A program made the translations under genes and the position numbers. The notes under the pieces are model-generated. The model saw only the letters and a list, made by a program, of their open reading frames with translations, was not told where the DNA came from and searched no databases. 39,518 nucleotides of DNA from an uncultured Oscillospiraceae bacterium (GTDB taxonomy: Bacteria; Bacillota; Clostridia; Oscillospirales; Oscillospiraceae). Position 1 is the stretch's first letter. The number at the start of each line of letters is the position of its first letter. Shown here piece after piece: positions 6,005-39,044 of this stretch. The stretch is from contig CALWXB010000016.1 in the NCBI GenBank assembly GCA_944385405.1, forward strand, positions 1-39,518, in the 5' to 3' direction.

Positions 6005-6018
6005 CAGAAGGGAGCGGT

Positions 6019-6501
6019 ATGCGGAGCGAGGAAGCGCTGATCAGAGCCATCGATCGGTATGCCGATACTGTTCGGCGGCTCTGTATGATCCATCTGAAAA
6101 ATCAGGCTGATACCGAGGACATATTTCAAACGGTGTTTTTGAAATATGCCCTTAGCTCCGTTTCCTTTGAAGACGACGAACATGAGAAGGCCTGGCTCAT
6201 CCGGGTGACCCTCAATGCCTGCCGGGACCTTCTGAAGCGTGTATTCCGCAGCCGCACGGTATCCCTGGAGTCGCTTGGAGAACAGCCTGCGCCGATACCG
6301 CCGGACTACCGGGAGGTGCTGGAAGCAGTATTGGCCCTGCCGCAGGCCTATCGAGACGTGGTATATCTTCACTACTATGAAGAGTACACCGCTCCGCAAA
6401 TCGGTCAGATCCTTGGGAAAAATGTCAATACAGTCTACACGCTTCTGTCACGTTCCAGGCAGATGCTGCGGGAAAGGCTGGGAGGTGACGCGGATGCATG
6501 A
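6019..6501 (+). CDS. ECF-like RNA polymerase sigma factor
   Basis: Sigma-70 family factor of about 160 residues with only regions 2 and 4. Region 2 reads AIDRYADTVRRLCMIHLKNQADTEDI... (start quoted in part; FQTVFLKYA follows). Region 4 has LPQAYRDVVYLHYYEEYTAPQIGQIL followed by the recognition-helix part NVNTVYTLLSRSRQML, typical of ECF factors. The frame is open from 5953, but an AAGGGAG just before the ATG at 6019 decides the start. The stop overlaps the anti-sigma start by 8 bases, so the two are translationally coupled. It presumably directs transcription of its own operon and wall-related genes once released; targets cannot be read from the window. Confidence 0.9.
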   Translation: MRSEEALIRAIDRYADTVRRLCMIHLKNQADTEDIFQTVFLKYALSSVSFEDDEHEKAWLIRVTLNACRDLLKRVFRSRTVSLESLGEQPAPIPPDYREVLEAVLALPQAYRDVVYLHYYEEYTAPQIGQILGKNVNTVYTLLSRSRQMLRERLGGDADA

Positions 6502-7213: not shown

Positions 7214-7226
7214 ACAACACGCGCGG

Positions 7227-7264
7227 AAAACCCAGCCTCCGATGCTTTCGGAGGCTGGGTTTTT
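7227..7264. terminator. Bidirectional rho-independent terminator
   Basis: Perfect 16-bp stem (7227-7242 with 7248-7263), 5-nt loop, A run on one side and T run on the other. It serves the sigma/anti-sigma operon (+) and the convergent recombinase gene (-). Confidence 0.92.
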
Positions 7265-10657: not shown

Positions 10658-10822
10658 GGACCATCCCCCCTGCCGGAATCTTATGGCGGGGGGATCGTCC
10701 CTCATGACAAATTATAGCGGTTCACCATTCCGAAATCAAGGGCAGGCTCCTCCACCGCTGCTGCCGCATAGTCTGTAACAGGCGCGGAGCCATTCCGCGC
10801 GCTCTTCAAAAGGAGGTATCCA

Positions 10823-11284
10823 TTGCCTATGGAGAACCAGAAACCATCCGCCACCCCCTGCGGCTCCGATCAGGGCTCCCTGCCCGGCTGCTGCGCGTCG
10901 CTGGCGTTTCCCTTTATTGCTATGCAGGAATCGAACCCCGTGCGGCTGAGCCGGATGGAAGCTCTCCAGACCGGTACGCTGTTCCCCGGTCTGGATCTGC
11001 CTTTCAAAGCGGCCATCCAGGCCAAAACGAAGATGGCCAACACAGCGCTTGTAGAGCTGATGGCCCTGGACTTTGCCGTGGATGAGCTGGGATTGTATCT
11101 CACCACCCACCCGCAGGATCAGGAGGCACTGCAGCTGTATTGGTCCTATATCAAACTCTCGGAAGAGGGCCGGGAAAAATACAAAAAGACCTACGGTCCC
11201 TTGCTGCAGACCGACCTGACACCTGAAGACGGCTATGCCTGGCTGCAGGATCCGTGGCCCTGGGACAAAGGAGGGAACACGTAA
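10823..11284 (+). CDS. Fused spore coat protein CotJA-CotJB
   Basis: Protein of 153 residues joining two normally separate coat proteins. Residues ~24-66 look like CotJA (LAFPFIAMQ ... EALQTGTLFPGLDLPF). After a short linker, residues ~68-150 look like CotJB (LVELMALDFAVDELGLYL, THPQDQEALQLYWSY). In B. subtilis cotJA, cotJB and cotJC form one mother-cell operon encoding inner coat proteins. The start is TTG at 10823, six bases after AAGGAGG, or ATG at 10829 with a longer spacing. CATAGTCT at 10767-10774 resembles the -10 of sporulation sigma E/K promoters, but no convincing -35 was found. The stop overlaps the cotJC start by one base. Confidence 0.83.
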   Translation: MPMENQKPSATPCGSDQGSLPGCCASLAFPFIAMQESNPVRLSRMEALQTGTLFPGLDLPFKAAIQAKTKMANTALVELMALDFAVDELGLYLTTHPQDQEALQLYWSYIKLSEEGREKYKKTYGPLLQTDLTPEDGYAWLQDPWPWDKGGNT

Positions 11285-11397
11285 TGTTTGTATACGAGAA
11301 AAAACTGCAGTATCCGGTACGGATCAAAAATACCAATCCCAAGCTGGCAGCACTGATCATCTCCCAATACGGCGGACCAAATATCAATAAACTATAA
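11284..11397 (+). pseudogene. cotJC: 5' fragment of cotJC, interrupted by the prophage
   Basis: CotJC is a manganese-catalase-like spore coat protein of about 190-200 residues. Here only the start is present: MFVYEKKLQYPVRIKNTNPK continuing to IISQYGGPN, a near-perfect match to the family N-terminus. The normal text would continue with G-E-L-A-A-S after GGPN or GGPD. Instead the frame reads four unrelated codons (INKL) and stops at 11395-11397. The phage late-operon terminator and genes begin immediately after. An AAGGAGGGAACACGTA ribosome site precedes the ATG, so translation signals are intact. Either the gene is permanently broken, or it is restored when the prophage excises, as in the sigK and spsM systems. 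Confidence 0.88.
11371..11397. other. Left prophage-host junction (att site) within cotJC
   Basis: Similarity to CotJC is lost at or just before 11383 (codon 34). The recombination core therefore lies at or slightly upstream of that point, probably within the GGCGGACCAAAT stretch encoding Gly-Gly-Pro-Asn. The partner junction is outside the window, so the exact core cannot be fixed. Confidence 0.75.
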
Positions 11398-11430
11398 AAA
11401 GGCAAGCGGGAATCAGCTTGATTCCCGCTT
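11396..11430 (-). terminator. Terminator of the phage late operon at the prophage edge
   Basis: Perfect 12-bp stem (11404-11415 with 11419-11430). On the minus strand it is followed by GCC and a T run (11400-11396). It lies between the stop of the giant polyvalent gene and the cotJC fragment and would shield host DNA from late phage transcription. Confidence 0.88.
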
Positions 11431-11435
11431 ACCTT

Positions 11436-14400
11436 CTATCCATCCAGCCTGGGGATGATGTTCCAGGGATCATACTCCGACCGACCGTACCATGGCGCGT
11501 CGTCCAGCGTGCTTTCCTTGTATCCCGCAGCGTAGTACAGCGCCGTTTTCTGGGCGTTGTTCAGGTCCATGGAGTCGATGAACTGCATCACCTTCCGCTT
11601 CAGGGAGCCGCTGATGGTCTTTCCCATGGGGCCCTTGTCTGTGCTGAGGCCAGAAATGCCCTCCAGGAAGGAGACGAACTGTTCCGGCGTCACACCGCTC
11701 TGATAGGCGTCCGCAAGACCCTCATATTCCGATTCGGTCATCACTACCCGCAAGGCTTCCATCTGTTCCCGTTCCGACAATCCGGCACGCACCATTTCAT
11801 GATACTTTTGGTATCGACTTGTCTCCGCTTCTTTTCCTTCCCATTCCATTGCACGGAACAAAATTGCTGTGGCCGGATCGATTCTCTCCGCTTCTACCTC
11901 AAGCATCCATTTCGGAGGTGTGTAGTCGCTTACGCTGGCACGCGCCATGGCGTCCGCATAAGAATATATTTCATCTATTGCATGAACTTTTCCCTCATCT
12001 GTTAAAGTTTCAAATGCTGCATTTTCCATAATATCAGTGATAATCTGATATGAATCGTTTCCTCTTTTTGTCGCATACCGGATATATTGATCCGCAGTAA
12101 GATCAATTCGTTCCCCGTCCACAGTAAAATATCGAGGCGCCCTGTCCGGCAGAACGTCTCTGCTTCCGGTTCTTGAGTAGATTTCCTGGATTTCCTGATC
12201 CACCGGTGTCTCATTTACCTCGGAAAGGTAGGCTGGGTTGAAAAAGTTGTTGAGAATCCTATACGGCAGGTCTCCTGTTTGTTCTTCTCTTCCCCAGGCG
12301 TCAATATACGGAACCTGCTGGTAGTCCAAAATCGGGATCCTGGAGGATGCTCTTCCCAACGCATATTGGATATCCGTTGGGATTCCGCTGTTTTTGTCCG
12401 TATAGGTACTCATTCTCTTGCTCTCAAAGGATCGTTCAATCTGCCCGCCGAGTGTCGGTAGCGCCTGAGTAAAATAAGAGACGATTACAGAAGGAATCAT
12501 GGCGAGCAGTTTCGGCCCGTCAGAAAAGGAGACACTTTCGATCAGGTCGTTCACACCCTGGAGCATGGACAGTTCCAAAAGCGGGCTGGCCGTTGAGACC
12601 AGTGCGGTCATTATCGCTTCTGCATCCATTCCCTCTTCTCCCATGGCGGAAGCTAATTCCACACCCATGAAGAATGGCAAAGACTCCGGAGCCAACCAAT
12701 CCAACGTGACAGATGCGCCGTCCGGCAGTTCCAGAGAGTAAGGCTGGTGTCCCAGCAGTTCATTGTATGCATCCTCCTTGCTGTCTCCGGAACCGCCGCG
12801 AATCAATCCTTCGCTGAATAAGTACGCGCCAAGTCCCATCAGGGCAGATCCGGTAAGTCCGGCAGCAATGCTGTCTATTGCTTCCGCTGCCGTCTTTTTT
12901 CCATTCTTGACTTGCCAGCAGTCATAAGTAAGTGCCTTTGCAAGTCCAGCTGGGCTGTACTCCAAACCTCTTGCTAAGATGTTGGCCGGTGTGCGGCGGA
13001 ATGGAAGAACAGCTTCTCCGATGAACCCGAGAGAATCAGCAATTTTTACAAATCGGTTGGAGATGGCGTTTGTGTCCTGATAAGTAGCTTTCAGTGCCTC
13101 TTGGCTTGCATACTCTCTGGCCCGTACCAGAATTTCCGGATCCACTTTTCCTGTTTCTAGCTGTGCAGCTGACACTCCGTTGGCTCGCAAATATCCGGCC
13201 AGAGAATCTGCATAAGTGATGCGCTTGAACAGAGTGTCTTCAAGCTCCAAGACGGCGGAATTACCTTTTCTCAGTCTCTCCAGTGGCTGAAGCCTAAAAA
13301 TGGTCCGGCGGCGCTGTATCTCGGTTTCCGGTTTCTCGCTATATTGATTTCCACTCAATACATCCGCAACATTTTCAAAGTCCTTCCAGGCGCTTCGATA
13401 AAGCTCGGGCGATGCTGCAAACGATTTTGTCCTCTCCACGCTATGACCTGCTTTTTCAAGTCCAGCCTCGATTGCTGCCGCAATTTCGTTTTTCACCATT
13501 CGGAGCGGCTGGAACCCAATGTTTCCCACTATGTTTCGAATATGGGTGCGGGGATTCGTCAGCATGGACATGTAGCGCCAGGCCCGCCATCTCTCCTTCC
13601 AATCCGCCGGCATTTGATTGGCAATGTCCTGATAGATGGCATCCAGCGCCGCTGCCTGCTCCGCCGCGTTCTCCGCATGCAGATAGGCGTCCGACAACTC
13701 CGTGTCTATCGTGATTTGATCCTGCCCCGTCAGCTCCTTTGTCAGTCTCTCCCCATAATCCAACGAACTTTTGAACCAATCATCAAATGCCTGAAGGGCC
13801 TTTGGATTATTTTCAAATTCCTTTGACAAGGTGGCTTTCGCCGCCTCCCAGGCTTCCTGATAGGCATCCTGATTCTGAAACAGATCCCGGATCCGTTCCA
13901 TTTCTGAACGCCCGCCGGCAACAGCCCCCTTCGGAGCCGTCTCAGCTGCAAATTTTCGCAAATCCGAAAGGATCGTCTGCGTCACAGTCCTTGTCCGCTG
14001 TTTTGGTTCCTTGGTTCTTGCGGCAAGGCTATCTGCCAGTTCCTCCCCCACTTTCTGCATCCACTGATCTACAGGTACATTGTCTGTCGCTTTCGGTTTC
14101 TTCCTTGTTTTAGAACCTTTACCGGCCGTTTTCCGCATATCACCGGTTCCAGCATTTCCATATCCACGCTCGCTTCCGGTGAACTCCGGTCCGCTCTGTG
14201 TGGTATTCGTGCTGCTTCCGCTCTGCATCCTCCGGATTTTTCCGGTATAGGTTTCGTTGATCCGGTTTACCTCCTTTTGGAGCATGTACAGTTTTCCGGA
14301 TGGAGTCAGTGTTTTCAAAATCCGCATAGCCTGCGTCGCTCTGGCACCGTTCCGAGCCGATACAGACAGATCATACGCCAAATCCAGCGCCATTTTTGTA

Positions 14401-17400
14401 TTGCCCGCATTAGCCGCTGCATTGTAGAGGACTGTTCCCAGAGCCGTGATCTCCTCAGATGCTTTCCCACTGTTCACATCCTCCTTGAATTTTGCCACTG
14501 CCCCGGTAAATCCAAGGCGCTGAATCGTCTTTTCCGCTCGGTCTCGCACCGTTTTGTTTGCAACGGGGATAAAGGAAAACTTCCCATCCACAACAGCCTG
14601 CCCAATTTCTCCTACTGCGCTGTCCGGTGTTGCCGCCGCCTCCAGGATTGTCCTTGCAGAGTACGAGACCTTATTTCCCGATTCCGTACGACTTGGAACG
14701 TCGATTTCTCTGGCGGGCTTTTCACCAGTTGGAATTGCTCCGTATTCGTTCAGCTTGTTGGTATATGGGTCGAATCCGGCCTTTGCAGCGCCTATCGAAT
14801 CTCTTCTGGCATCTCCGGAAGGATCCTCCCCGCCCAGCACCCTGGTCACCAGATCCACGTCCGCCGGGTCCGGCGTCCCCGAATTGACAGGTTCCGCGTC
14901 TTGTGGTATCGTAAAATCAGAATAGGAAAGACCTTGCGGCGGCACGCTTCGGGCGTTATGTGCGGGGCCGGTGAGATCACTGGCATCGTAGTACTCCGTA
15001 ACATGCGGGTCTTTCCTTTTCTGTTTGTACAGAGTATCCGTTTGGATGGAATGTGTCCCATCAGATACCGCCTGCATCGTCACATACTGATTGCCGATTT
15101 GCTTTTCGAAGATCAGGACGTCTCTGCCTCTGGAATCCCGGTCCGGTGAAAGCCGCACATGATCCGGCTCCGCCAGCACCTCCGGGATCCGCGCAATATC
15201 CTCCGCCGTGACAGCAGATTGACCTCTTGCGGACTCCGAAGCGGCATCCCCGTGGTTTTTGATAATATGGCGCACATTGTCACTGGGCAAAATCGCCCGG
15301 TATCCCGTTATATCAACTCCGGTATCTTCCCAAACTCTTCGAGCCACTGTATCAGGAACTTTTCCAAGGTAAGCCCTGTCTGCACTTTGTTTGACGGCCA
15401 GGGCGTTTTTGACAAAGGAAACCGCATCGGAAAAGGTAGAGATGATTTTGTTTCTCTTTCCGCTGCTGAGATTGATCTTTTCCTGATCTGTCAGGGCTGT
15501 CAAGCCGTTTTCATTTACTGCCGTTCCGGGTACTGGGGTGGTGTTTTCTTTGCTCCGCAGTGTCCCCGTCTCCTCCCCGCCGCTGAGGATCCTGGCCACC
15601 AGGTCCACGTCCGCCGGGTCCGGTGCCCCCTGTTTGACAGATTCCGCGCCTTGTGGTATAGTAAAATCAGAATTGAGGGGACGCGTACCCTCAACCGGAG
15701 CTGTTTCTTGCCCACCTGCAGCGGGATCTCGACCCGTGTCAGCATCTGTGGCAGGAAACAGCTCTATTTCATTTAATTTGTGGGTACGGTAGTTGTTGAC
15801 GTCGGGGAATACTTCTACGTCAAAGGACACCATATATGACCTGCCGTTGATCTTGGCCAGCGTTTCAAAATAATCATACCGAACGGTGTTCTTTTGCTTG
15901 CTCCCGTGCTGTACATATTGGCCGCTGCCCACATACTCGCCGTTTTGCACCACCTGCGGAAGGATGTCCAGCAGCGCCAGCTTCTCCGCTGTCAGGTTGG
16001 GGTCGCTGATGACTTTTCCGGGTACACTACCCGGAATATCCACGGTGTAGGGCCTGCCATCAAAGGTGACGCCGGATACCGGCACATTCTTCGATGGTTT
16101 GAATACCGCTTTATAGGCGTTCTTCAGCGTGGCTTTAAAGCTCTTCTCTAGAGCAGCGCCTTCCGGCCCATAGGATCCGTTGATCAGATTTTGCGCCGCC
16201 TGTACGCTGCCGCTGTCCACTGTGACGGCGGCGGTACTTTTTTGCGTCTGCACCGGTGTCTTTCCCTGGTATGGTTTCTGGATGACGGTCACCCGTCCGG
16301 CCTGCACCGATCCCGTCTCCGTTCCTCCATTGAGGACCCTGGCCACCAGGTCCACGTCCGCCGGGTCCGGCGTCCCCTGTTTGACAGACTCCGCCGCTTC
16401 CGTTTCGGGGGCGGCATTTTCCTTTCCCTGTACGCGTCCCATCCCCACGTCCACCGCGCCGCCGACGCCGCCCAGCACCGCGCCGATGGCCGCGTCGCGC
16501 AGCGCGTCGCTGAGGTCGAAGCGGGCGTCGGGGTCGTAGGTGGCCCGCTGCAGCACCGGCTGGAACACGTCCTCCACGAACTCCTCGCTTCCCTCACCGA
16601 TGGCGGAGGCCGCGATCTTCCCCATCGCCGTCTGGGAGAGCTTTTGCATGGTCTGCACGGCGGTGCTCTCCCCGAACCGGCTCACCAGCGTGCCCGCCAG
16701 CTTGTCCGCCGCGCCGGCGCCGAAGGCCTTGCGGAAGGGCGATGCCACGTTGGAGATCTTCTCCGTGGCCACGGAAAGCGCCGCACTGGCTGTGCCGTAC
16801 GCCAGCTGCTGCCCCAGGTCTGCGCCTTCCTGTCTGGCCTTCTGCGTGCTGCTGCCGAATGTGCGAGCCGCCACTACCGGCATTGCGCTTCCGCCGGTCA
16901 ATGCTACCAGGCCGATGTCTCCCGCCAGCTGCACGCCGGCCGCGCCTGCGTCCACCAGGAAGGACCCCACCGCGCCTGCGCCCTCCTTGGCGTCCGCCAG
17001 ATCCTGCGCGGCGGAATCCGCCAGTTCATCCGCCGTCCCATACACGTCGGAGATCACCCGGGAGATGGGCGCATGGGTGGCCTCCGCGCCCTCCCGATAG
17101 ATCCCGGCCCGCTGCTCCGCCCGCTGGGCCAGCATCTCCAGCCGCTGCTTCCCAGCCGCGTCCAGGACGGTGCCGTCGTCCAGCGTCCCCCGGGAGAGCA
17201 TCTCTCGGTAGTGGGCCGCGTTTTCCGCCTCCTGGACCGATTTCCGGTACTCCTGGCTGTTAAGGGTGTCCAGATGTCTGGCCGTATCCAGCAGCACGCC
17301 TCCGGCGTTGGAAAAGGCCGCGCCGGTGCTCTTCACCGCCCCGGAGACGGTGTCCGCCACCCGTCCGGACAGCGTCGGCATTTTGGCGGTCCCGGAGGCG

Positions 17401-17717
17401 GCGGACCGTACCGGCTGTGAGGTCCGGGCCGGCTGCGCGGCCGCGGTCCCTACCCTGGGCATCACGGCTGTGGAGGCTGTCTTGAATACAGAGCTCTGCC
17501 GTACAGAGAAAGGCACGGAGGTACTTCCATACACCTTTCGCCGCAGCTCTTCTCCTGCAGTTGTGCGTCCTGTGGCAGAACTTTCGGTATTTCCGACACT
17601 TCCAGCCGCTTGAGTTTGCGTCTCATATGCAGCCTTTCGTACAGCTTGGATTTGCTCCTCGGTTGGGTCTGCCGTTCCATATACTCGGCTCCGCAACACG
17701 TCACCGACGCTTGCCAT
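11436..17717 (-). CDS. Giant phage polyvalent (probable ejection) protein with nuclease-like domain and LPD38-like C-terminus
   Basis: Protein of 2093 residues, last gene of the late operon. Residues ~1-440 are Ala/Gly-rich with hydrophobic stretches (VDAGAAGVQLAGDIGLVAL), typical of internal virion proteins. Residues ~510-650 look like an LPD3-type polyvalent domain. Residues ~790-905 look like a PBECR-class nuclease (Barnase-EndoU-ColicinE5/D-RelE-like), with RRVWEDTGVDITGYRAIL, HIIKNHG and a SIQTDTLYK end. A linker with PDPADVDLV occurs three times (near 450, 700 and 950), between these domains. Residues ~1370-2093 match LPD38, with LTNPRTHIRNIVGN. By analogy with published polyvalent proteins, it may be packaged, injected with DNA and act against host factors or defences. 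A TAAGGAGGG site precedes the ATG. Confidence 0.8.
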   Translation of the reverse strand: MASVGDVLRSRVYGTADPTEEQIQAVRKAAYETQTQAAGSVGNTESSATGRTTAGEELRRKVYGSTSVPFSVRQSSVFKTASTAVMPRVGTAAAQPARTSQPVRSAASGTAKMPTLSGRVADTVSGAVKSTGAAFSNAGGVLLDTARHLDTLNSQEYRKSVQEAENAAHYREMLSRGTLDDGTVLDAAGKQRLEMLAQRAEQRAGIYREGAEATHAPISRVISDVYGTADELADSAAQDLADAKEGAGAVGSFLVDAGAAGVQLAGDIGLVALTGGSAMPVVAARTFGSSTQKARQEGADLGQQLAYGTASAALSVATEKISNVASPFRKAFGAGAADKLAGTLVSRFGESTAVQTMQKLSQTAMGKIAASAIGEGSEEFVEDVFQPVLQRATYDPDARFDLSDALRDAAIGAVLGGVGGAVDVGMGRVQGKENAAPETEAAESVKQGTPDPADVDLVARVLNGGTETGSVQAGRVTVIQKPYQGKTPVQTQKSTAAVTVDSGSVQAAQNLINGSYGPEGAALEKSFKATLKNAYKAVFKPSKNVPVSGVTFDGRPYTVDIPGSVPGKVISDPNLTAEKLALLDILPQVVQNGEYVGSGQYVQHGSKQKNTVRYDYFETLAKINGRSYMVSFDVEVFPDVNNYRTHKLNEIELFPATDADTGRDPAAGGQETAPVEGTRPLNSDFTIPQGAESVKQGAPDPADVDLVARILSGGEETGTLRSKENTTPVPGTAVNENGLTALTDQEKINLSSGKRNKIISTFSDAVSFVKNALAVKQSADRAYLGKVPDTVARRVWEDTGVDITGYRAILPSDNVRHIIKNHGDAASESARGQSAVTAEDIARIPEVLAEPDHVRLSPDRDSRGRDVLIFEKQIGNQYVTMQAVSDGTHSIQTDTLYKQKRKDPHVTEYYDASDLTGPAHNARSVPPQGLSYSDFTIPQDAEPVNSGTPDPADVDLVTRVLGGEDPSGDARRDSIGAAKAGFDPYTNKLNEYGAIPTGEKPAREIDVPSRTESGNKVSYSARTILEAAATPDSAVGEIGQAVVDGKFSFIPVANKTVRDRAEKTIQRLGFTGAVAKFKEDVNSGKASEEITALGTVLYNAAANAGNTKMALDLAYDLSVSARNGARATQAMRILKTLTPSGKLYMLQKEVNRINETYTGKIRRMQSGSSTNTTQSGPEFTGSERGYGNAGTGDMRKTAGKGSKTRKKPKATDNVPVDQWMQKVGEELADSLAARTKEPKQRTRTVTQTILSDLRKFAAETAPKGAVAGGRSEMERIRDLFQNQDAYQEAWEAAKATLSKEFENNPKALQAFDDWFKSSLDYGERLTKELTGQDQITIDTELSDAYLHAENAAEQAAALDAIYQDIANQMPADWKERWRAWRYMSMLTNPRTHIRNIVGNIGFQPLRMVKNEIAAAIEAGLEKAGHSVERTKSFAASPELYRSAWKDFENVADVLSGNQYSEKPETEIQRRRTIFRLQPLERLRKGNSAVLELEDTLFKRITYADSLAGYLRANGVSAAQLETGKVDPEILVRAREYASQEALKATYQDTNAISNRFVKIADSLGFIGEAVLPFRRTPANILARGLEYSPAGLAKALTYDCWQVKNGKKTAAEAIDSIAAGLTGSALMGLGAYLFSEGLIRGGSGDSKEDAYNELLGHQPYSLELPDGASVTLDWLAPESLPFFMGVELASAMGEEGMDAEAIMTALVSTASPLLELSMLQGVNDLIESVSFSDGPKLLAMIPSVIVSYFTQALPTLGGQIERSFESKRMSTYTDKNSGIPTDIQYALGRASSRIPILDYQQVPYIDAWGREEQTGDLPYRILNNFFNPAYLSEVNETPVDQEIQEIYSRTGSRDVLPDRAPRYFTVDGERIDLTADQYIRYATKRGNDSYQIITDIMENAAFETLTDEGKVHAIDEIYSYADAMARASVSDYTPPKWMLEVEAERIDPATAILFRAMEWEGKEAETSRYQKYHEMVRAGLSEREQMEALRVVMTESEYEGLADAYQSGVTPEQFVSFLEGISGLSTDKGPMGKTISGSLKRKVMQFIDSMDLNNAQKTALYYAAGYKESTLDDAPWYGRSEYDPWNIIPRLDG
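14842..14923. repeat. Direct repeat copy C between domains of the giant gene
   Basis: An 82-bp unit matching copy B (15592-15673) with about 10 mismatches by eye. On the minus strand it encodes SDFTIPQDAEPVNSGTPDPA and onward DVDLVTRVL. It marks the C-terminal side of the PBECR-like domain. Confidence 0.8.
15592..15673. repeat. Direct repeat copy B between domains of the giant gene
   Basis: An 82-bp unit about 88 percent identical to copy C, 750 bp away. It encodes SDFTIPQGAESVKQGAPDPA and onward DVDLVARIL on the minus strand. It separates the LPD3-like and PBECR-like domains. Confidence 0.8.
15634..15662 (+). promoter_or_regulatory. Near-consensus sigma-A promoter antisense inside the giant gene
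   Basis: TTGACA (15634-15639), 17-nt spacer, TATAGT (15657-15662) with a TGG just before the -10, matching the extended -10 pattern. It points rightward, antisense to the giant gene. Copy C has TTGACA, the same 17-nt spacing and TATCGT. This could be chance in coding DNA. Confidence 0.35.
16339..16394. repeat. Direct repeat copy A (short form) in the giant gene
   Basis: A 56-bp unit matching the first part of copies B and C, encoding ESVKQGTPDPADVDLVARVL. It lies on the N-terminal side of the LPD3-like domain and lacks the SDFTIPQ part. Confidence 0.75.
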
Positions 17718-19411: not shown

Positions 19412-20800
19412 TTACTGCAAGCCCAGAAGGTGCTTGCGATACTCCATCACGGCGTACTGCCGCCGGGTCAGGGGCGCATCCAGCATCAGGTCCCCCGCCT
19501 CGTTGCCCTGCATGATCCCCTGCTCCGTGATCCAGGCCACCGCCTGCTCCGCCTCGGTGGGCGCACTGTCCGGTCCGGGCGTCTCCTGGGATGTCTCCGG
19601 TACCCAAGCAACCCCAAGGTGGTCCGTGATGCCCCGGGCCTCTGCTTCGGCCACAGAGGCCCGCCAGCTGCCGTCCTTCAGGTTTGCCGCGTCCTCCGCA
19701 TTGGTGTGGAAGGCGTGCTCGATGAGTACCGCCGGGGCCGCCGTGTGCTTCAGGACATACAGCGCCGGGTCATATACGATGGGCGCGGACCGCACTGCCG
19801 TCCCCGTCTCCCGGACTCGTGTCAGGATGGCCTGCGCCGCCTGCTCCCGCGCGCCGCCCGCGCCGTAGATGTACGCGCTCCAGCCCCGGGCGCTGGACCA
19901 GCCGCTGCCGCCGGCGGCGTTGGAGTGGAGGGAAACAAAGAGGTCCAGCCCAACGATGCCGTTGGCGACGGAGCACCGCTGGGCCAGGGACACCGCCGAG
20001 CCGTCTGGCCTAGTTTCCGTCACCGCCACGCCGCAGCGCTCCAGGTGGTCTCGGATCCGCTTGGCCATGTCCAGGGCAAACTCGTGCTCAAAGTAAGTGC
20101 CGTCCGGGCTCTTGTTGGCCAGATTCCCGGCATCGTGTCCGGCGTCCAGCACCACATGCGTCTGATCGCTCACAGGCTTCTCCTCCTTGTTTCCGTCATC
20201 CCGCAGCCACAGCAAAATCAATGTCTGGCTGGGGTCCTTCCCCTCCATCATCACACCGGCGGCCCGCACGTACAGGTTCACCTTCCGCCCGCCGTCCATC
20301 ATGACGGCGAACCGGCACCCCTGCCGGGCCATGTAGTCCCGGCACGCCTCCGGGGTGCAGGCATCGCCGGAGCCGTCGCTTGCCCCATACGTGATCCACT
20401 CCGTATCCGTCAGGCCCACCGCCACCCGGCCCCTGCGGCCGGCCACGTCGGCGTTGTAATAGAGCTTGGGCTGGGGCGTTCCCTGGCGCACCAGCAAACA
20501 GTTGGCCACGTAGTTGGCCCGGCCGCAGGCCCCGCCGGGGGGCACCAGGACTTCCGCGGCATCCGCGCCGGAGTCCCAGGCCACCGCCCAGTAATTGTAT
20601 TCCCGGTCCGCAAACAGTATCTCGCCGTCTGCCTTCACCGGGCAGACCGGCCGCCAGGCGCCGGGGTCGTAAAAGGCCGCCGTCAGGGCGATGTCCGGCT
20701 GCTGCTCCTCCACGATCTCCGAGAGCGGTTTTTTCCCGGTGTTGACATACACCGCCGCCCTCCGGATGGCGGACAGCGCCGTCCGTTCCAGGTGTACCAT
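19412..20800 (-). CDS. Two-domain phage endolysin: phosphodiester-glycosidase-like plus amidase_3
   Basis: Protein of 462 residues. Residues ~1-195 look like the phosphodiester glycosidase/NAGPA family, with an ALTAAFYDPGAWRPV block and the MMDGGRKVNLYV block containing the family DGG. Residues ~205-390 are an N-acetylmuramoyl-L-alanine amidase_3 domain, with VVLDAGHDAGN (His), FEHEFALDMAKRI (Glu), FVSLHSNAAGG (His) and AVLIEHAFHTN (Glu). The C-terminus (AVAWITEQGIMQGNEAGD ... TRRQYAVMEYR) looks like an SLH-type or wall-binding repeat. The ATG at 20800 follows AAGGAGGGACCCAC; longer frames upstream are not needed. It lies in the lysis region with the holin. It would cleave peptidoglycan; the role of the first domain is unknown. 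Confidence 0.85.
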   Translation of the reverse strand: MVHLERTALSAIRRAAVYVNTGKKPLSEIVEEQQPDIALTAAFYDPGAWRPVCPVKADGEILFADREYNYWAVAWDSGADAAEVLVPPGGACGRANYVANCLLVRQGTPQPKLYYNADVAGRRGRVAVGLTDTEWITYGASDGSGDACTPEACRDYMARQGCRFAVMMDGGRKVNLYVRAAGVMMEGKDPSQTLILLWLRDDGNKEEKPVSDQTHVVLDAGHDAGNLANKSPDGTYFEHEFALDMAKRIRDHLERCGVAVTETRPDGSAVSLAQRCSVANGIVGLDLFVSLHSNAAGGSGWSSARGWSAYIYGAGGAREQAAQAILTRVRETGTAVRSAPIVYDPALYVLKHTAAPAVLIEHAFHTNAEDAANLKDGSWRASVAEAEARGITDHLGVAWVPETSQETPGPDSAPTEAEQAVAWITEQGIMQGNEAGDLMLDAPLTRRQYAVMEYRKHLLGLQ

Positions 20801-20817
20801 GTGGGTCCCTCCTTTTC

Positions 20818-20845
20818 TTGACAGGTCCTCCCGTCCGATGATAAA
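20818..20845 (+). promoter_or_regulatory. Sigma-A-like promoter of the + strand cargo gene
   Basis: TTGACA (20818-20823), 16-nt spacer, GATAAA (20840-20845), in the gap between the divergent endolysin and cargo genes. It leaves a leader of about 28 nt ending in a G-rich ribosome site. Confidence 0.6.
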
Positions 20846-20879
20846 ACATGGATAGATACAAAATTGGGGGGGTGTAGAT

Positions 20880-21437
20880 ATGCAGACCCAGGCCCAGCGG
20901 AAGGAGGCCCTTCTGCGGGAAGCGGACCAGATCCAGGAGGAGCTCCAAGACCTGTCTCCAGGCGATCCCCGGCGTCTGGACCTGGCGCGGAAGCTCCGTG
21001 ACACACTGGCGGCGTATCAGGCCGTCCCCTCCGACGAAGAGCTGCGCGCCCAGCGGGACGCCCGCTACGACGAGATCTCCGCGCAGATGAAGGACCCGGA
21101 GCTGTCCCCGGAAGCGTTCCTGGCCCTGGCAGACGAGCAGCTGCAGCTGCTGGATGAGATGCGCGCAGAAATGAACGCCGAGCAGGAGGCCCTGCTGCGG
21201 GCTTTCCGCGCTCTTCAGGTCCGGCGCAGCTTCCGGTATCAGTTTCACTGTTGGTGCTATGGCTTCCGCGGCATTGTCTGGTTAACGTTCTTCACGGCGC
21301 TGATCGGTCTGCCACTGTCTCTTTCTCTGTCCACAGATTATCCCTGGATGGGCCTGCTGGGCGTCATCACAGCCGTAGGCTCCCTGGTCTGGGCCATCTG
21401 GTCCAGCCGCCCGCCCCAGGATGGGGACGGACCGTGA
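20880..21437 (+). CDS. Prophage cargo protein: coiled coil plus two membrane helices
   Basis: Protein of 185 residues on the strand opposite to the late operon, between endolysin and a small lysis-region gene. Residues 1-115 are highly charged and helical (AQRKEALLREADQIQEELQD), probably a coiled coil. Residues ~125-175 contain two hydrophobic helices (FRGIVWLTFFTALIGLPLSLSL and WMGLLGVITAVGSLVWAIW). No known domain was recognised. It has its own sigma-A-like promoter, a GGGGGGGTG ribosome site and a shared terminator at the end. These are the marks of a moron gene expressed in the lysogen. Superinfection exclusion or another host-conversion function is a reasonable guess but not shown. Confidence 0.75.
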   Translation: MQTQAQRKEALLREADQIQEELQDLSPGDPRRLDLARKLRDTLAAYQAVPSDEELRAQRDARYDEISAQMKDPELSPEAFLALADEQLQLLDEMRAEMNAEQEALLRAFRALQVRRSFRYQFHCWCYGFRGIVWLTFFTALIGLPLSLSLSTDYPWMGLLGVITAVGSLVWAIWSSRPPQDGDGP

Positions 21438-28964: not shown

Positions 28965-29981
28965 TCAGGTCCCGCTCAGTGCGGTGCCGCCGGTCATGCC
29001 GCCGGCCGACACGAAGCGCCAGTCGGCAAAGCCGCCGGAGAACCGGGCCCGGCCCTTCCAGAGGTTGTTGTCGTTGTTGTCATCCAGCACGGAGCGGACG
29101 TGGAGCTTCACCCGGTCCTGGAAGATGGCGCCGTCGTTCTCCTCCAGGAAGCCGGAATCCAGCAGGAACCACGGCTTGTCCGTCTTGCCCATGAGCTGCA
29201 GCACCCAGGTGAGATACGGGTCCACCAGGATGTTCCACCGGCCCACCTGGTAGTTGAAGGCGTTTTTCTCGCTGTCGGGGTCCTTGTCGGACCCGGCGGC
29301 GGCAAAGGCCGCCTTCTTGAGGCCGGCGTCGTTGGGGATCCAGATGGTGTTGGGCGCGATGTTCAAAAGCTCGCCGTTGTCGCCCTTGAGGTTCTGCATC
29401 TTCTCTTCCATGATGCCCAGGTTGTCGGCGGTGAGGTCCCCGGCAAAGAGGTTGGACTGGGCTTTCTTGTCCACCTTGCCCGGGTGGTCCTTGGCGAAGA
29501 GGGGCTTCTTGTCGGCGCTGGCGCAGTCGAAGGTCTTGGCACCGATCTTCACGGTGGTGCCGTAGAGGCCGCCGGCGTAGAGATACCGGCCGAACTTCTC
29601 CCGGGTGCGGTCGTAGGACGTGATGAGCTTGTTGGCCCGGTTCTTCATGGTGCTGATGCGGCCGTCCTCCACCAGCTCCTGGGTGATGGCGAACTGGCTC
29701 TTCCAGGTCTCGTTGACGATGGCCTTGGGGAACCCCTCCTCAAAGCCGGTCTCCGGGTAGCTGCCGCCCTCGCCCACCGGCTCGAAGTCGTCCATGGCCG
29801 TCTCGCCGGTGTACTGCTCGGCCCAGTGCTTGCTGGTCTCCATCCGGAAGAGCTTTTTCAGGATGGAGCGCTCCTCAAAGGCCTCGCCCCGCTTTTCCAG
29901 GTAGCTCTTGATGGGGAACTGGCTCTTGCCATACAGGCTGTCCACCACGCCGGAGCCGATGGACACGGTACAATATGCCAT
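28965..29981 (-). CDS. Major capsid protein (Mu gpT-like)
   Basis: Protein of 338 residues following scaffold and decoration genes. It has the look of Mu-gpT-like major head proteins: FEERSILKKLFRMETSKHWAE near the N-terminus, an aromatic/acidic loop TGFEEGFPKAIVNETWKS, QELVEDGRISTMKNRANKL in the spine helix and NTIWIPNDAGLKKAAF in the A domain. It would assemble the icosahedral shell around the scaffold. A GGAGGAAAGAAACT site precedes the ATG. A hairpin terminator directly after the stop probably raises its level relative to the downstream genes. Confidence 0.83.
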   Translation of the reverse strand: MAYCTVSIGSGVVDSLYGKSQFPIKSYLEKRGEAFEERSILKKLFRMETSKHWAEQYTGETAMDDFEPVGEGGSYPETGFEEGFPKAIVNETWKSQFAITQELVEDGRISTMKNRANKLITSYDRTREKFGRYLYAGGLYGTTVKIGAKTFDCASADKKPLFAKDHPGKVDKKAQSNLFAGDLTADNLGIMEEKMQNLKGDNGELLNIAPNTIWIPNDAGLKKAAFAAAGSDKDPDSEKNAFNYQVGRWNILVDPYLTWVLQLMGKTDKPWFLLDSGFLEENDGAIFQDRVKLHVRSVLDDNNDNNLWKGRARFSGGFADWRFVSAGGMTGGTALSGT

Positions 29982-31528: not shown

Positions 31529-31740
31529 GCTGTCTCCTCCTTTCCCGTGTGTTTCATGACCGCCGTTTCCGGCGTGGTCTGCATGGTATGGCGGACGGTC
31601 TGGCGGCCCACGGTGCGCCCGCAGTCCGGGCACCGCCGGTTGCGGCAGCGGAACTCCAGCACCCGGACCGCCGTGCCGCCTTGGATCTCCTCCGCCGCGG
31701 CCATCACCGCGGCCTCCGTCTCACAGACCGGGCACCTCAT
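31525..31740 (-). CDS. Phage zinc-ribbon protein
   Basis: Protein of 71 residues with four metal-binding Cys in two pairs, CPVC at residues 3-6 and CPDC near residue 36, plus one extra Cys (CRNRRCPDCG). This is a classic zinc ribbon, similar in layout to Ogr/Delta-like or Com-like phage regulators but not clearly one of them. The ATG overlaps the portal stop (ATGA), and its own stop overlaps the next start, so all three are translationally coupled. It may bind nucleic acid or act in assembly. Confidence 0.75.
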   Translation of the reverse strand: MRCPVCETEAAVMAAAEEIQGGTAVRVLEFRCRNRRCPDCGRTVGRQTVRHTMQTTPETAVMKHTGKEETA

Positions 31741-33755
31741 ACCGCCCCGCCCCCTTCCAAAGCGGGCAGCGCCGCCGCCAGCGCGGAAAGGTCCGTTCCG
31801 CCGGTCCCTCCGGCCGACACGGACGCCTCCTTCCCGCCGCCCGTGTCCCGGTTCATCCCCGGCACGGTTTGGGCCGTCTGCGCCGCCTGCTTTTGCCGCT
31901 GCAGCTCTGCCTTGACGGTCCCCGCCATGGGGTAGTGGAGCTGCTCCATCATGGACCAGTAGAGGATCAGGCTGTCCAGGGACGCAGGGTCCCCGAAGGC
32001 CCCCTCCGCCCGCTGGGCGCGCATCTCCTGCCACATGGCCTCCCGGTTGGAGGCCAGGGGCGCGGAGGTGTCGCAGGAGAAAAGGAACGCGTCGTTCCAG
32101 TAGGGCTGGCCGTCCGCGTCCACACGGAGGAAGTCCCAGCGGTTGAAGGTCCGGTACTGCCGCTGCCCCTGGGCGTTGTAGGTGACGATGGGCCTGGGTT
32201 CGTCGGCATAGGCCAGCTTCCACTTGAACAAGCGTTCGAACAGACGCTGGTAGAGGTCGTTTTTCATGATGCGCTTGCTCTCCAGCCGCCCCGCCGCCTG
32301 GGCGGCGGAGAACTGCTTGGCCTTGCCGGAGGTGGCGGTGGCGTCCCGGCGGCCCTGGAAGGAGTCCGTGATGCCCAGGATGTTGCGCCCCTCCTCGTAG
32401 ATCTCCGCCCGGTACCGGAGGTCCGCGGAGATGTCCACCTGGGTGTTGTAGGTGCGGATCATGTCCAGCTGCTGGGGGCTCTTCACCGTCAGCGTCCGGC
32501 CGTCCTCATCGGAGAACTCATACTTGAGGTCCGCGGGCTTGGTGGTAAAGCTGCCGCCGCTCATGACCTTGGCGGAGAGCTTGGCGGAGATCTTGCTCAT
32601 CTCGTTCTGCTGCCCGGCGATGGCGTCGGCGTCGGAGGCCCCCAGCAGCTGCCCGGCCATGGACACGTTCCGGCGCATGATGATGGGATACAGCCCCGGC
32701 GTGTAGCAGGGGATGCGCCGCTGCCGCGTCCGGGCCGGCCGGGCCAGCACCACCGGAGGCGATCCCCCGCCGAGCATCTCCGCGCCCAGCACATCCAGGA
32801 TCTCCGGCTCCGCCGTCTCGTCGGGCACAGGGAAGCCCTGTTCGTCCCGCTCCTCCTCCATGGCCGAGAGCACCGTCCCGTCGTAAAGGGTCAGGTCCTC
32901 GTACAGCTCCTCGTACGTCTGGACCTCGTCCCGGAAGTCCGTGCCGCCGCAGTGGATGCACTTCACGCCGTCCCCCTCTGCGCCGCACCTCCGGCAGATC
33001 TTCCGCCGCCGGGCCTGGCAGTCCTCCAGATCCTCCAGCAGCGTGTCCCGCACCCAGGCCAGGCGGCCGATACCGCCCCGGTGGTTGCGGTAGAACACCA
33101 GATACTCCGTGACGATGCCCTCCGGCGCCGCGCCGTCCACCTCCGAACGGGCGCTTTCGTCCTCCTCTCCCTCGTCCCGGACATCCACGCCGTACCGGCG
33201 CAGGATGTACTGCCAGGTCCGGGGGATCTTCAGGCAGAAATGCTCCATCTCGTCGATGTCGTAGACTCCCGCCTGGGGGATCAGCTGCCGGGGGTGGATC
33301 TCCCGCACCGTGGCGTCCCCCAGGGTGGTGTGGGTGCTGACGCTCTGGTCCCAGTCGATCCAGAGGAAGTCCGCCCCGTGGGTGTAGGTCACCCGCTCCT
33401 GCAGATCGTTGAGGACCTCCATGGGCAGGCGGTCCAGCTCGTTGCGCAGCATGTCCTCGATGATCCGGGCCAGGTCCTCGTCCTCCTGATGGAGGGCCGT
33501 CACCTTGGGTTGGGGGATGTTGGCGTCCACCTCCGTCTCGATCATCTCCTGCACCAGGTTCCGGCGGTAGGAGGCCTGCCGGCTTGCGTGGGTGCCGTCC
33601 GGCGCGGTGATGGAGGCAGTACCCCGCAGGAGCTGCTCCTGCACGCGCAGGCGGTCCCGGACGCCCTGCCAGTCGTTTTCGTCATACCGGACCACAGCCT
33701 GCCAGTGGGCCAGCCGCCGGCTCTGCTCTTTCGGGATGTGCTCCCGTTTCTCCAT
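31737..33755 (-). CDS. Phage portal protein with a zinc-ribbon insertion
   Basis: Protein of 672 residues at the position of the portal, directly after the small terminase. It has the look of the large portals of short-tailed phages: RRNLVQEMIETEVDANIPQP, YTHGADFLWIDWDQS and the later SAKVMSGGSFTTKPADLKYE. At residues ~250-270 there is a four-Cys cluster (CRRCGAEGDGVKCIHCGG) inside the wing region, a zinc ribbon not expected in classical portals. It forms the dodecameric ring for DNA packaging. A GTG start at 33764 overlapping the upstream stop is possible, but the ATG at 33755 has the better ribosome spacing after GGGAGGAG. Confidence 0.85.
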   Translation of the reverse strand: MEKREHIPKEQSRRLAHWQAVVRYDENDWQGVRDRLRVQEQLLRGTASITAPDGTHASRQASYRRNLVQEMIETEVDANIPQPKVTALHQEDEDLARIIEDMLRNELDRLPMEVLNDLQERVTYTHGADFLWIDWDQSVSTHTTLGDATVREIHPRQLIPQAGVYDIDEMEHFCLKIPRTWQYILRRYGVDVRDEGEEDESARSEVDGAAPEGIVTEYLVFYRNHRGGIGRLAWVRDTLLEDLEDCQARRRKICRRCGAEGDGVKCIHCGGTDFRDEVQTYEELYEDLTLYDGTVLSAMEEERDEQGFPVPDETAEPEILDVLGAEMLGGGSPPVVLARPARTRQRRIPCYTPGLYPIIMRRNVSMAGQLLGASDADAIAGQQNEMSKISAKLSAKVMSGGSFTTKPADLKYEFSDEDGRTLTVKSPQQLDMIRTYNTQVDISADLRYRAEIYEEGRNILGITDSFQGRRDATATSGKAKQFSAAQAAGRLESKRIMKNDLYQRLFERLFKWKLAYADEPRPIVTYNAQGQRQYRTFNRWDFLRVDADGQPYWNDAFLFSCDTSAPLASNREAMWQEMRAQRAEGAFGDPASLDSLILYWSMMEQLHYPMAGTVKAELQRQKQAAQTAQTVPGMNRDTGGGKEASVSAGGTGGTDLSALAAALPALEGGGAV

Positions 33756-33760
33756 GTCCC

Positions 33761-34216
33761 TCACGCTCCTCCCAGAAGATCCTCATAGCTCTCCCCAGCC
33801 TGGTCCTCCCCCAGTCCCGGCAGCATCCGGGAGAGCATCTCCAGCGCCCGCAGGGCGCCCTTGCTGTCAAACTGCCACACGCCGGAGGGCACCCACTCCC
33901 GGACTGCAGAGTCCCACTCCAGCACCGGCTTTTTCTCCGTGCAGCGGCGGTAGACTTCCCAAACCTCCGCCGCCAGGGAGTGGCGCGTCACGCCGATGGC
34001 GTCGAACTGCTCCTGGAGCAGGGCGTCCCGGTACTCCCGGACCGACCGCTTGCGCAGGAGGCGGCTGGCCTGGCTGGCGGCGCTCTTTTCGCTGTACCCC
34101 GTCCGGATGGCCGCCGCCGTGCCGTTGAGATCCTGGAGATACTCCCGGACGAACTGCCGCTCCCGGGGCCGGAGGCGCTTCCCCAGCTCCTCGGCGGCGC
34201 TTTTCGCCTCTTCCAT
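33761..34216 (-). CDS. Terminase small subunit
   Basis: Protein of 151 residues of the Terminase_2 type. The N-terminal DNA-binding part reads LRPRERQFVREYLQDLNGTA and IRTGYSEKSAASQASRLL, the typical helix-turn-helix signature. It recognises the packaging site and recruits the large subunit. The ATG at 34216 follows AGGGGGAAACGGC; a longer frame to 34264 is less likely. Unusually it lies about 2.9 kb downstream of the large subunit, with a hairpin terminator just before it, which implies its own promoter upstream. None was clearly identified. Confidence 0.9.
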   Translation of the reverse strand: MEEAKSAAEELGKRLRPRERQFVREYLQDLNGTAAAIRTGYSEKSAASQASRLLRKRSVREYRDALLQEQFDAIGVTRHSLAAEVWEVYRRCTEKKPVLEWDSAVREWVPSGVWQFDSKGALRALEMLSRMLPGLGEDQAGESYEDLLGGA

Positions 34217-37085: not shown

Positions 37086-37111
37086 AAAGGCCCTCCGGGC
37101 CTTTTTCTTTT
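37086..37111 (+). terminator. Hairpin with + strand T run between tad2 and large terminase
   Basis: Perfect 8-bp stem (37086-37093 with 37097-37104), 3-nt loop, followed on the plus strand by TTTTTCTTTTT. As a plus-strand terminator it would end transcripts reading through from the membrane cargo gene across tad2. In the minus direction the T run is short, so late transcription would pass at least partly. Confidence 0.65.
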
Positions 37112-38799
37112 TATCCTCCATGCGACCACAGCTCCATCAGCCGCCGCTTTCCTGCCTCGTCCGCCGCCCGGTAGTCCTCCCACATGTCCTCCGTCCAGCG
37201 GGTGGTGTCGGCGCTCCCCTGCCGCTCCATGGTCACGCGCTGCTGGGACCTGGCAAAGTGGCAGATGGCCGCCGCCATCACCAGATCGTCGTGCTCTCCT
37301 TCCTCCGCCTCCGGCCGGCGCTGCTCGTTGTAGACGAAGTGGAGCATCTGCCGCAGCGTCTCCCGGCTGGCCACCAGCTCCGGCGTCTCCTCCATCACCG
37401 CGTGAATCCCCGCCAGGATCACCGGCCGGGTCCGGGGCGTGGTCTGGAAGCCGAAGGATTTGACGCTCTTGCGGGTGTAGGTGTCGAATCGCTCCCGGGC
37501 GTAGAAACAGGGGTAGCCCCACTCCTCCAGCTTGCGCTGTGGGTAGGTGGAGAAGTTGGTCTCCACGGCGATGAGGGCCCCGTTATAGAACCTCCCCAGG
37601 CAGTAGAGCTGCCGGGCATACAGCAGCTCGGAGAAGGTGAACTCCAGCTCCGCCGCCTGGGCGCCGGTTCGGTTGTCCACCACCCAGGCGGTGAACTTGT
37701 CGCTGCCCTCTCCGGCAGTGTCGCCCCCGATGACGTAGGGGACTTCCGGCTCCGGCGGGGCGTAGATGCGGATGAAGCCGGTGCGGCGGTCCGGGTTCCA
37801 GGTCCAGTCCGCCGGGGCCTCGCCCGCTTCCGGCTCCGGATAGGTGAAAAGGCCCACCTCCGTCGGCTCCCGGGCCGATGCCAGACGCAGCAGGATCTGC
37901 TCGTTGTCGAAAAACGGCGTGCCGGAGAAGAGGAACGCCTCCTCCGGCGTGGAGGGATATTCCTGCTGGAACTTGCGCTTGTCGCCGTGGCAGTTAACGG
38001 CGATGCACCACCGCCGCCAGGCCATCTGCTCCGGCGAGAGATGATAGGCCTCCATGAGGCCCTGTTCTTCCGCATCCCAGACGGTGCCCTCCGGTACCTC
38101 CATCCGGTACTCCTCTTCGTGGAACCAGGCGATGAACAGCGGCACCCAGCCGTTGGTCCCGGCCTCCGCCCCGTCCCAGAGGTCCTTGAACTCGTTGTAG
38201 CCGTTGGCGGTGGACTCGATGACCACCAGGGTGCGGACGTCCGCCGGCACGGCCTGCATCACGCCGTCCAGGATCTCGTTCTTGTTCCCCTTCCAGAAGG
38301 CGAACTCCGAGAGGTGGACATTGTTCAGCGTCTCGCTGCGGCCCATGCCGTCGTTGGCGGTGACGCAGCGGATGGAGGACATGAGCCCCGGCCGCCGCCG
38401 CTTTTCTCCCGGGTTCCGGGTGGGATTCTCGAAGACCAGCTCCTTGGCGTTGGAGTGCTTGCACATGGGCTGAAGACGCCGGGGCAGGCAGTCGTAAAAG
38501 AGCTTGTTCATGCGGAACAGCTTGGTGGTGGAGTCGTCCCGGTGGGCCACGATCAGCGTCTGCACCAGCTTGCGGGTGACGCTGTCGTGGAACATCACGC
38601 CCTCCGTGATGGTGGAAAGGCCCAGCTGCCGGGCCTTGAGGATCAGGATGCGGGGCGGCCTGCCCGCCGCCCGCTCCTGCCGGATGAGATCCAGCAGCAT
38701 CTGCTGGGCGGGCTTGGGCCGCAGCGGCGCCAGCGCCCCGGTCTTGGTCCGGATCTTCAGAAACTGCGGTATGTAGGTGCCCGCGTCCCGCACATCCAT
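37111..38799 (-). CDS. Terminase large subunit
   Basis: ATP-driven DNA packaging motor and nuclease of 562 residues. The ATPase domain shows the Walker-A-like LILKARQLGLST (about 53-64) and Walker B followed by the catalytic Glu in TLVVIESTANGYNEF. The nuclease domain shows three acidic sites: VIGGDTAGEGSDKF, LIAVETNFS and EHDDLVMAAAI. Upstream ATG at 38820 is possible, but GAGGGGGTGACGGGA before the ATG at 38799 is the better site. It precedes tad2 on the same strand and lies upstream of the small subunit, the reverse of the usual TerS-TerL order. Confidence 0.95.
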   Translation of the reverse strand: MDVRDAGTYIPQFLKIRTKTGALAPLRPKPAQQMLLDLIRQERAAGRPPRILILKARQLGLSTITEGVMFHDSVTRKLVQTLIVAHRDDSTTKLFRMNKLFYDCLPRRLQPMCKHSNAKELVFENPTRNPGEKRRRPGLMSSIRCVTANDGMGRSETLNNVHLSEFAFWKGNKNEILDGVMQAVPADVRTLVVIESTANGYNEFKDLWDGAEAGTNGWVPLFIAWFHEEEYRMEVPEGTVWDAEEQGLMEAYHLSPEQMAWRRWCIAVNCHGDKRKFQQEYPSTPEEAFLFSGTPFFDNEQILLRLASAREPTEVGLFTYPEPEAGEAPADWTWNPDRRTGFIRIYAPPEPEVPYVIGGDTAGEGSDKFTAWVVDNRTGAQAAELEFTFSELLYARQLYCLGRFYNGALIAVETNFSTYPQRKLEEWGYPCFYARERFDTYTRKSVKSFGFQTTPRTRPVILAGIHAVMEETPELVASRETLRQMLHFVYNEQRRPEAEEGEHDDLVMAAAICHFARSQQRVTMERQGSADTTRWTEDMWEDYRAADEAGKRRLMELWSHGG

Positions 38800-38804
38800 T
38801 CCCG

Positions 38805-39044
38805 TCACCCCCTCGTCCATGCCCAGAACGCCTCCGCGGTGGCAAAGTTCTGCATCATCTCCACATTGCGCTCCAGGGTCCGGACCTGCACCAGCATGTC
38901 CACGTCCCAGGCAGGCCCCGCCGGCAAGGTCCGGGCCTCCTCCGTCCGCCCTCCCAGGGTCTTGACGATCCGGATCTCCCGCCCCGCCGCGATGGCCCGA
39001 CGCAGCCTGCGGCAGTCCTTTTCATCCAGCAGGATACATTCCAT
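38805..39044 (-). CDS. Small phage protein of unknown function before the large terminase
   Basis: Protein of 79 residues (MECILLDEKDCRRLRRAIAA ... EMMQNFATAEAFWAWTRG). No known domain. The start is ATG 39044 after GGAGCGCGCACG, or GTG 39068 after GGGAGG. It overlaps the preceding gene by about 23 bases and ends 5 bases before the large terminase start, so it is part of the same operon. Confidence 0.6.
   Translation of the reverse strand: MECILLDEKDCRRLRRAIAAGREIRIVKTLGGRTEEARTLPAGPAWDVDMLVQVRTLERNVEMMQNFATAEAFWAWTRG

Follow-up and report, generated by a model that had tools for sequence, protein, structure and literature searches.

The question raised by this locus is whether a spore-coat gene that a prophage has split is rebuilt when the cell sporulates. 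The locus lies on a contig of 39,518 bases (C16), analysed whole and hereafter called the window, from an uncultured Oscillospiraceae assembly of 84 contigs that is 88% complete. The left part of the window consists of host genes up to radA, an amidase and the cotJA-cotJB frame; cotJC then begins behind a ribosome site, breaks off and gives way to phage genes (Table 1). The order cotJA-cotJB upstream of cotJC is common to 43 loci, and 38 of the 43 upstream regions hold a sporulation-type promoter, GCATAnnAT. These 38 regions were the source of our PWM; two without the motif (L012 and L089), one duplicate (L080) and two that failed the length/N filter (L036 and L052) were left out. Since the cotJ promoter is of the sporulation type, transcription of the operon presumably takes place in the mother cell. 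A second strong match to this promoter type stands in the host part of the window, at 3299 (+), with a score of 14.0. To our knowledge, sporulation genes interrupted by excisable elements have been described singly, in Bacillus and a small number of clostridia.

The initial annotation had described an intact cotJ operon start that breaks off at Gly-Gly-Pro-Asn and is followed by four foreign codons, a phage-type terminator and the late operon of a tailed phage, and it holds in part. The operon start is intact, with its cotJ-type promoter, cotJA-cotJB frame and ribosome site all present. The split also stands: the 5′ piece matches a whole CotJC at 91% (tblastn), and the frame at window 11284-11397 reads MFVYEKKLQYPVRIKNTNPKLAALIISQYGGP and then NINKL, remaining open up to the stop at 11397. 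The family match, however, ends at Pro32 and not at codon 33; whole CotJC has Asp33, the Asn at position 33 of the window frame is already foreign, and the foreign codons thus number five. The proposed terminator is a stable hairpin (minus-strand fold of 11390-11440, -30.1 kcal/mol, z -8.6, with 0 of 200 shuffles as good), but its T-run lies on the minus strand, where it would end the leftward phage operon. That operon carries the terminase, portal, head protein and endolysin genes expected of a tailed phage.

Table 1. Coordinates of the cotJ operon start, the prophage junction and the phage genes in the window
Feature	Position	Strand	Basis
cotJ-operon promoter, -10 GCATAGTCTG, sporulation type	10766..10775	+	PWM score 17.4, showing type and not activity, as this promoter is one of the kind of sequence modelled
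cotJA-cotJB as one frame, 5′ of cotJC	10823..11284	+	ORF list
cotJC 5′ piece, codons 1-32	11284..11378	+	PF05067 match, tblastn, translation
attL core TACGGCGGACC, 11 bp	11368..11378	.	Longest block common to both junctions
Hairpin with T-run on minus strand, probable phage late operon terminator	11398..11436	-	Folding
Large polyvalent phage protein, PBECR3 and LPD3 domains	11436..17717	-	Pfam
Endolysin	19412..21004	-	PHROGs phrog_435, E 5.9e-54
Major head protein	28965..29981	-	PHROGs phrog_371; relatives in three viral contigs
Portal protein	31737..33764	-	PHROGs phrog_156; P22-like portal in Pfam below cut-off
Terminase large subunit	37111..38820	-	PHROGs phrog_2

The remainder of the gene lies on another contig of the same assembly, C5. 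A PF05067 search of the genome returned two matches only, covering profile positions 1-32 in the window (26.2 bits, this short 5′ piece falling just below the 27-bit cut-off) and 28-197 at C5:9105-9572 (148.5 bits). Codons 28-198 of cotJC start 11 bp behind the end of a large serine recombinase (LSR) of 492 amino acids (C5 7616-9094) with resolvase, recombinase and zinc-ribbon domains. The attR core at C5 9108-9118 is identical to the window core, and cotJC joined at this core reads through 198 residues to its normal stop in an intact frame. The joined pieces belong to the CotJC/Mn-catalase family PF05067, whose whole relatives match solved Mn catalases. Chance is ruled out as an explanation, because this one genome also contains codons 28-198, and they follow a serine integrase and have the 11-bp core in common with the window. 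The prophage that the initial annotation had placed in cotJC is thereby confirmed, the 3′ part that it expected beside an integrase is found on C5, and the second full copy that would have spoken against it is absent from the PF05067 matches of this 88% complete assembly. On the evidence of the two junctions, cotJC is the attachment site (attB) of the window's temperate prophage, and C16 and C5 would carry the two ends of that prophage, each end on a separate contig.

The gene content of the two contigs is that of a temperate tailed phage, with head, packaging and lysis modules on C16 and, on C5, a lysogeny-type region upstream of the LSR that comprises an HTH repressor-like ORF (5802-6473) and leftward early genes. 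If C16 and C5 are parts of one phage, as we infer, the element in the window looks like a full phage. Its portal and head proteins have relatives of 40-50% identity in three viral contigs (portal, 40-43%); among the viral contigs, neither the predicted attP pattern nor the LSR protein found any match (0 each). The C5 part also encodes a ToxN family protein (6784-7278, minus strand; Pfam E 8e-46), which together with 2.9 copies of a 36-bp repeat (7329-7435) makes up a type III toxin-antitoxin locus in the prophage. The first 28 codons of the LSR are duplicated at C5 6651-6734, adjoining this locus.

Comparison with strains that have an uninterrupted cotJC revealed that splits of this gene recur, in frame and under purifying selection. 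Among 61 genomes of the genus, 49 have a match, which tblastn sorted into 22 with a whole 198-aa cotJC, 24 with a cut gene and 3 with a longer paralogue only, so that the gene is cut in 24 and whole in 22 of the 46 genomes that show it. One of the 22 (G057) has an additional partial, more divergent copy. The longer paralogue is full length among the matches listed, in both the genus and the family. The cuts fall at four sites, A (codons 28-32), B (61-66), C (133-137) and D (172-175). Aligning cotJC to solved Mn catalases placed each of them within about seven codons of what we take to be a metal ligand of these enzymes, where cotJC DNA would be most conserved. Six genomes carry two inserts in one cotJC (G022, G025, G048, G034, G051 and G003), and G009 and G221, the latter of genus g50, carry three, leaving the gene in up to four pieces. 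In 17 of the 24 cut genomes of the genus an LSR was seen, either close to a junction or within the insert. Among the seven in which none was seen, two have a contig end at the junction and one, G031, has a complete insert.

The pattern extends through the family. Of 150 genomes at least 85% complete, 130 have a match, and 44 of them have partial matches only among the matches listed; we inspected 19 of these 44, and the matches of two of the rest (G076 and G186) start at a contig end. All cotJC pieces in 20 loci from other genera are cut at the same places, with a full LSR in 17 of these loci, a fragment in one (L123) and none within the fetched stretch in two (L124 and L131). One Intestinimonas record, JALCSB010000004.1, shows three cotJC pieces and two inserts within a single 21-kb stretch. 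Searched with the window's LSR, named genomes yielded 17 relatives. For 16 of them a piece of cotJC with its cut at site A lies alongside; the seventeenth (L086) has no cotJC before its contig ends. At two loci (L081, one of the 16, and L130), an A-type LSR stands beyond the uncut 3′ end of a cotJC piece, convergent with it, and these two LSRs are sisters in the tree (98/98).

In a tree of 75 LSRs, 73 rows fall into five supported clades that are tied to the cut sites: A (27 rows, 100/100), B1 (23, 100/100), B2 (7, 100/100), C (9, 100/100) and D (7, 100/99). Each site has one clade except B, which has two, and the site label changes 14 times on the tree compared with 40.2 times in shuffles; some rows were given their site by lying inside an insert and not at its edge. 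The two rows outside the clades are a second LSR in the B insert of G221 and one in G048. Identity between the lineages is at most about 34%.

These observations are best explained, and we think probably so, by excision of the element in the mother cell, which would restore cotJC during sporulation. The LSR of the window's prophage would have integrated the phage within the core at codons 29-32 of cotJC. During sporulation, the LSR and a small element-coded directionality factor would excise the element from the mother-cell chromosome, joining cotJC in frame, and the inner-coat Mn-catalase-like protein would then be made; the forespore would keep the element. Sporulation-controlled excision had been proposed in the initial annotation. 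Its footing in recurrent, in-frame, selected splits has been strengthened; the expected sporulation promoter has not appeared, as the PWM scan of the window's prophage gave no cotJ-type match ahead of either its LSR or its candidate excision factor, nor was one found ahead of the LSRs of its close relatives. Among 20 inserts scanned for this promoter type, a strong match was seen only in G083 and G161, and in neither case before the LSR. Several small ORFs are candidate directionality factors. At site A the candidate is an ORF at C5:3722-3982 (minus strand) without a Pfam match; 9 of 20 distinct site-A loci have a relative of it, 63-100 aa long, in the neighbourhood of the LSR. An ORF of 61-96 aa that precedes the LSR in 7 of 10 B1 inserts, and a small ORF of genus g76, are further candidates. 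In the portions of the reports available, mutants of cotJC homologues in B. subtilis and C. difficile have a mild or no coat phenotype (PMC12122855, PMC11222575), which we counted against the excision reading.

The alternative that survives best is ordinary lysogeny, in which cotJC would be a conserved, dispensable landing site, the lysogen would live without CotJC, and the gene would look clean because insertions are short-lived, being lost by induction or curing. Several observations favour it. The window's LSR shares 88% identity with an LSR from an Intestinimonas MAG but 53-55% with the nearest congener tested, and so appears to move between genera; the window's prophage yielded no sporulation promoter; and the LSRs at sites C and D (pS 0.173 and 0.260, compared with 0.606 and 0.594 for cotJC) are younger than the divergence of their hosts. 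Constraint on cotJC may thus predate insertion at C and D, and with elements this recent the pN/pS of cut genes alone does not prove function. We therefore dropped the use of all split-split pairs as proof of long maintenance, and only genus g76 and the pair G109/G170 carry that argument.

In g76, all six species are cut at site B by one insert of roughly 3-4 kb that holds an LSR, a small ORF and a pyrimidine-nucleoside phosphorylase with a PYNP_C domain. The LSRs are 47-58%, and the phosphorylases 63-66%, identical to those of G135, the closed genome among the six. Judged by this divergence, the g76 split is old. The two pieces of cotJC have no stops and are constrained (median pN/pS 0.103 over 10 pairs for the 5′ piece and 0.161 over 15 pairs for the 3′ piece; 0.392 for the phosphorylase of the insert). 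In 6/6 species the end of the small ORF, called at 49-91 aa, coincides with the start codon of the LSR. In four of the six it is preceded by a two-block motif consisting of GGACAGGCAAA, a 16-nt gap and (C/A)ATAnnnT, and the other two have CATACACAT in front of it; a motif of this kind was not seen in the window's phage. Other PF02885 matches in these genomes, where there are any, are of TrpD length, so the insert phosphorylase appears to be the genome's only one (6/6 species; L112, L114, L156-L159), and excision would take its gene out of the mother cell. One species, G237, has an A insert as well, and the first 27 codons of its cotJC were not seen. The G109/G170 insert is likewise shared, with the same cargo, and its LSR has diverged (pS 0.746, pN 0.240) together with a cotJC that stayed constrained (pS 0.615, pN 0.017), from which this insertion, too, is reckoned to be old. 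Shared, diverged inserts in a constrained gene argue against ordinary lysogeny, as does the proportion of cut genes, about half of those in the genus and with up to three inserts each, a high load for a tolerated loss. We regard ordinary lysogeny as unlikely, if still a serious competitor.

Some splits may nonetheless be locked. The complete site-C insert of G031, 2.3 kb long (L036 2857-5194), holds a hybrid histidine kinase with a receiver domain as the only gene seen, and no LSR was found in it; unless a recombinase supplied in trans can excise it, this split is locked. In one g76 species, G238, the LSR frame contains stops. A hybrid histidine kinase 66% identical to that of G031 is also the cargo at site C in G022 (L035 2488-4596).

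A second alternative is that the split copies are non-functional remnants whose role another catalase or coat protein took over. Decay does occur: G050 has, beside a cut gene elsewhere in its genome, an extra cotJC fragment broken by an in-frame stop (L071 6761-7117), and some genomes hold the longer family paralogue. This paralogue is full length, however, in only two of the 24 cut genomes (G049 and G050) among the matches listed, and all 20 testable cut genes of the genus, laid out by codon, are free of stops and frameshifts, so that precise joining restores the frame. Three of the 20 (G003, G009 and G019) lack a match for the last 24 codons, a piece that was found in G034; four cut genomes represented by one piece only (G001, G023, G047 and G056) were left out of the codon and selection analysis. 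Cut cotJC is as constrained as whole cotJC, with median pN/pS of 0.1325 between whole genes, 0.1274 between cut genes and 0.1294 in mixed pairs (pairs with pS ≤0.05 omitted), and the 3′ pieces alone, beyond the insert, behave like the rest. Loss of the gene is accordingly improbable as a general account.

Broken or misjoined MAG contigs are a far weaker explanation still. In G004, counted among the 24 cut genomes, the junction coincides with the ends of both contigs, which overlap by 10 bases; this cut is doubtful and the gene may be whole; those of G042 and others break near junctions; and the permuted order in G048 may reflect a chimera. Yet inserts lie on the same contig as cotJC in many genomes, including the closed G135 and the isolate Oscillibacter ruminantium GH1 (G014), a member of the window's genus, and hence evidence that the host is related to Oscillibacter, in which a 5.2-kb insert splits cotJC; and identical sites with matching LSR clades recur across genera. 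As a control, spoIVA gave 58 matches in the same 61 genomes, one per genome, of which 57 are full length; the remaining one, in G040, is truncated where its contig ends. With spoIVA in one piece in 58/58, we rejected a genome-wide artefact of gene fragmentation. In a second set of 10 genomes, spoIVA is in two pieces in G187, both ending exactly at contig ends. In G048 (L056, L057 and L058; contigs C11 and C4), ligA ends just before the middle piece of cotJC and the 3′ piece lies ~10 kb upstream of radA, cotJAB and the 5′ piece; the assembly is a chimera unless the 'insert' now takes in most of the chromosome.

A split protein, made in separately translated pieces that come together as one enzyme with no excision of DNA, is scarcely credible. 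Some 3′ pieces lie behind a same-strand LSR and could be co-transcribed, but the LSR at B1 sites faces the other way, no ribosome site of its own was recognised for most 3′ pieces, and as many as four pieces would need to fold into one protein.

Excision in the mother cell, the reading we prefer, would place cotJC in a known kind of system. The closest likeness is SPbeta in spsM of B. subtilis, described in the accessible part of the source as a temperate phage with an LSR, a short core and in-frame joining on excision (PMC4191935). The two cases share a full temperate phage, its LSR, a split spore-envelope gene of the mother cell and a frame that joining at a short core restores; the target here is cotJC, and the RDF of SPbeta has a mother-cell promoter, whereas none was found in the window's prophage. 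The same excerpt describes the sprB promoter of SPbeta as having a good -10 and a poor -35 (PMC4191935), a likeness to the g76 motif. In skin, the RDF Skr is, according to the section available, a 64-aa ORF that overlaps the start of spoIVCA (PMC6957869). The skin elements in sigK of B. subtilis and C. difficile resemble those in cotJC in that the LSR adjoins the split gene, and the g76 small ORF overlaps its LSR start as skr does that of spoIVCA; the skin target, in contrast, is a sigma factor, and here it is a coat enzyme hit at four sites by five LSR lineages. The small elements of about 3-5 kb in other species look domesticated, by analogy with skin. Further serine-recombinase elements, vfbin (spoVFB), vrin (spoVR), gin (gerE), yin (yabG) and one in kamA, are each described, in the available extracts, as one element per gene (PMC5595907, PMC10747680, PMC4191935, PMC6957869), unlike cotJC with its several sites and several inserts at once; gin, like the small cotJC elements, has no phage genes. 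Interrupted genes named in the accessible literature are sigK, spoVFB, spoVR, spsM, gerE, kamA and yabG. Within the searchable portions of the open-licence literature, cotJC was not found as an interrupted gene. The nearest case is prophage phi027 of C. difficile, which in the portions available adjoins cotG, a CotJC homologue downstream of attR that is not split (PMC11222575, PMC12122855); a prophage is next to a CotJC-family gene in both cases, adjacent in C. difficile and splitting it here. As far as our searches reach, what is new within this known kind is the cotJC target, with its four active-site positions, five lineages and multiple inserts, and a small element that has become fixed.

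It is quite possible, if short of probable, that many Oscillospiraceae build cotJC by programmed excision, with five unrelated LSR lineages acting at four active-site segments and up to three inserts removed, and that in at least one genus the arrangement has become fixed and is passed on, with the insert carrying the only pyrimidine-nucleoside phosphorylase found in the genome. What the window shows is the phage end of a pattern that spans the family, and its split gene is a real and recurrent feature: in this major gut family, five integrase lineages have independently struck one 597-bp coat gene at four active-site segments. The inserts span every stage from a full phage to a fixed element of roughly 3 kb, a natural series for prophage domestication through which one may study how prophages turn into developmental regulators, why a coat enzyme is targeted and how two or three excisions per gene are coordinated. 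They also yield four new integrase/attachment-site pairs in which the position of the site is known. Annotation pipelines will report a split cotJC in spore-forming gut commensals as missing or broken.

The site-B inserts of G170 and G109 carry a tRNA-Pro(ggg) (L119 6964-7040 and L121 2033-2109, respectively); we rejected the idea that it is the sole copy, as each genome has a second, identical one. In the G109 insert, the LSR is fused in frame to a DNA alkylation repair domain (L121 3977-6181), and the two are separate neighbouring frames in G170.
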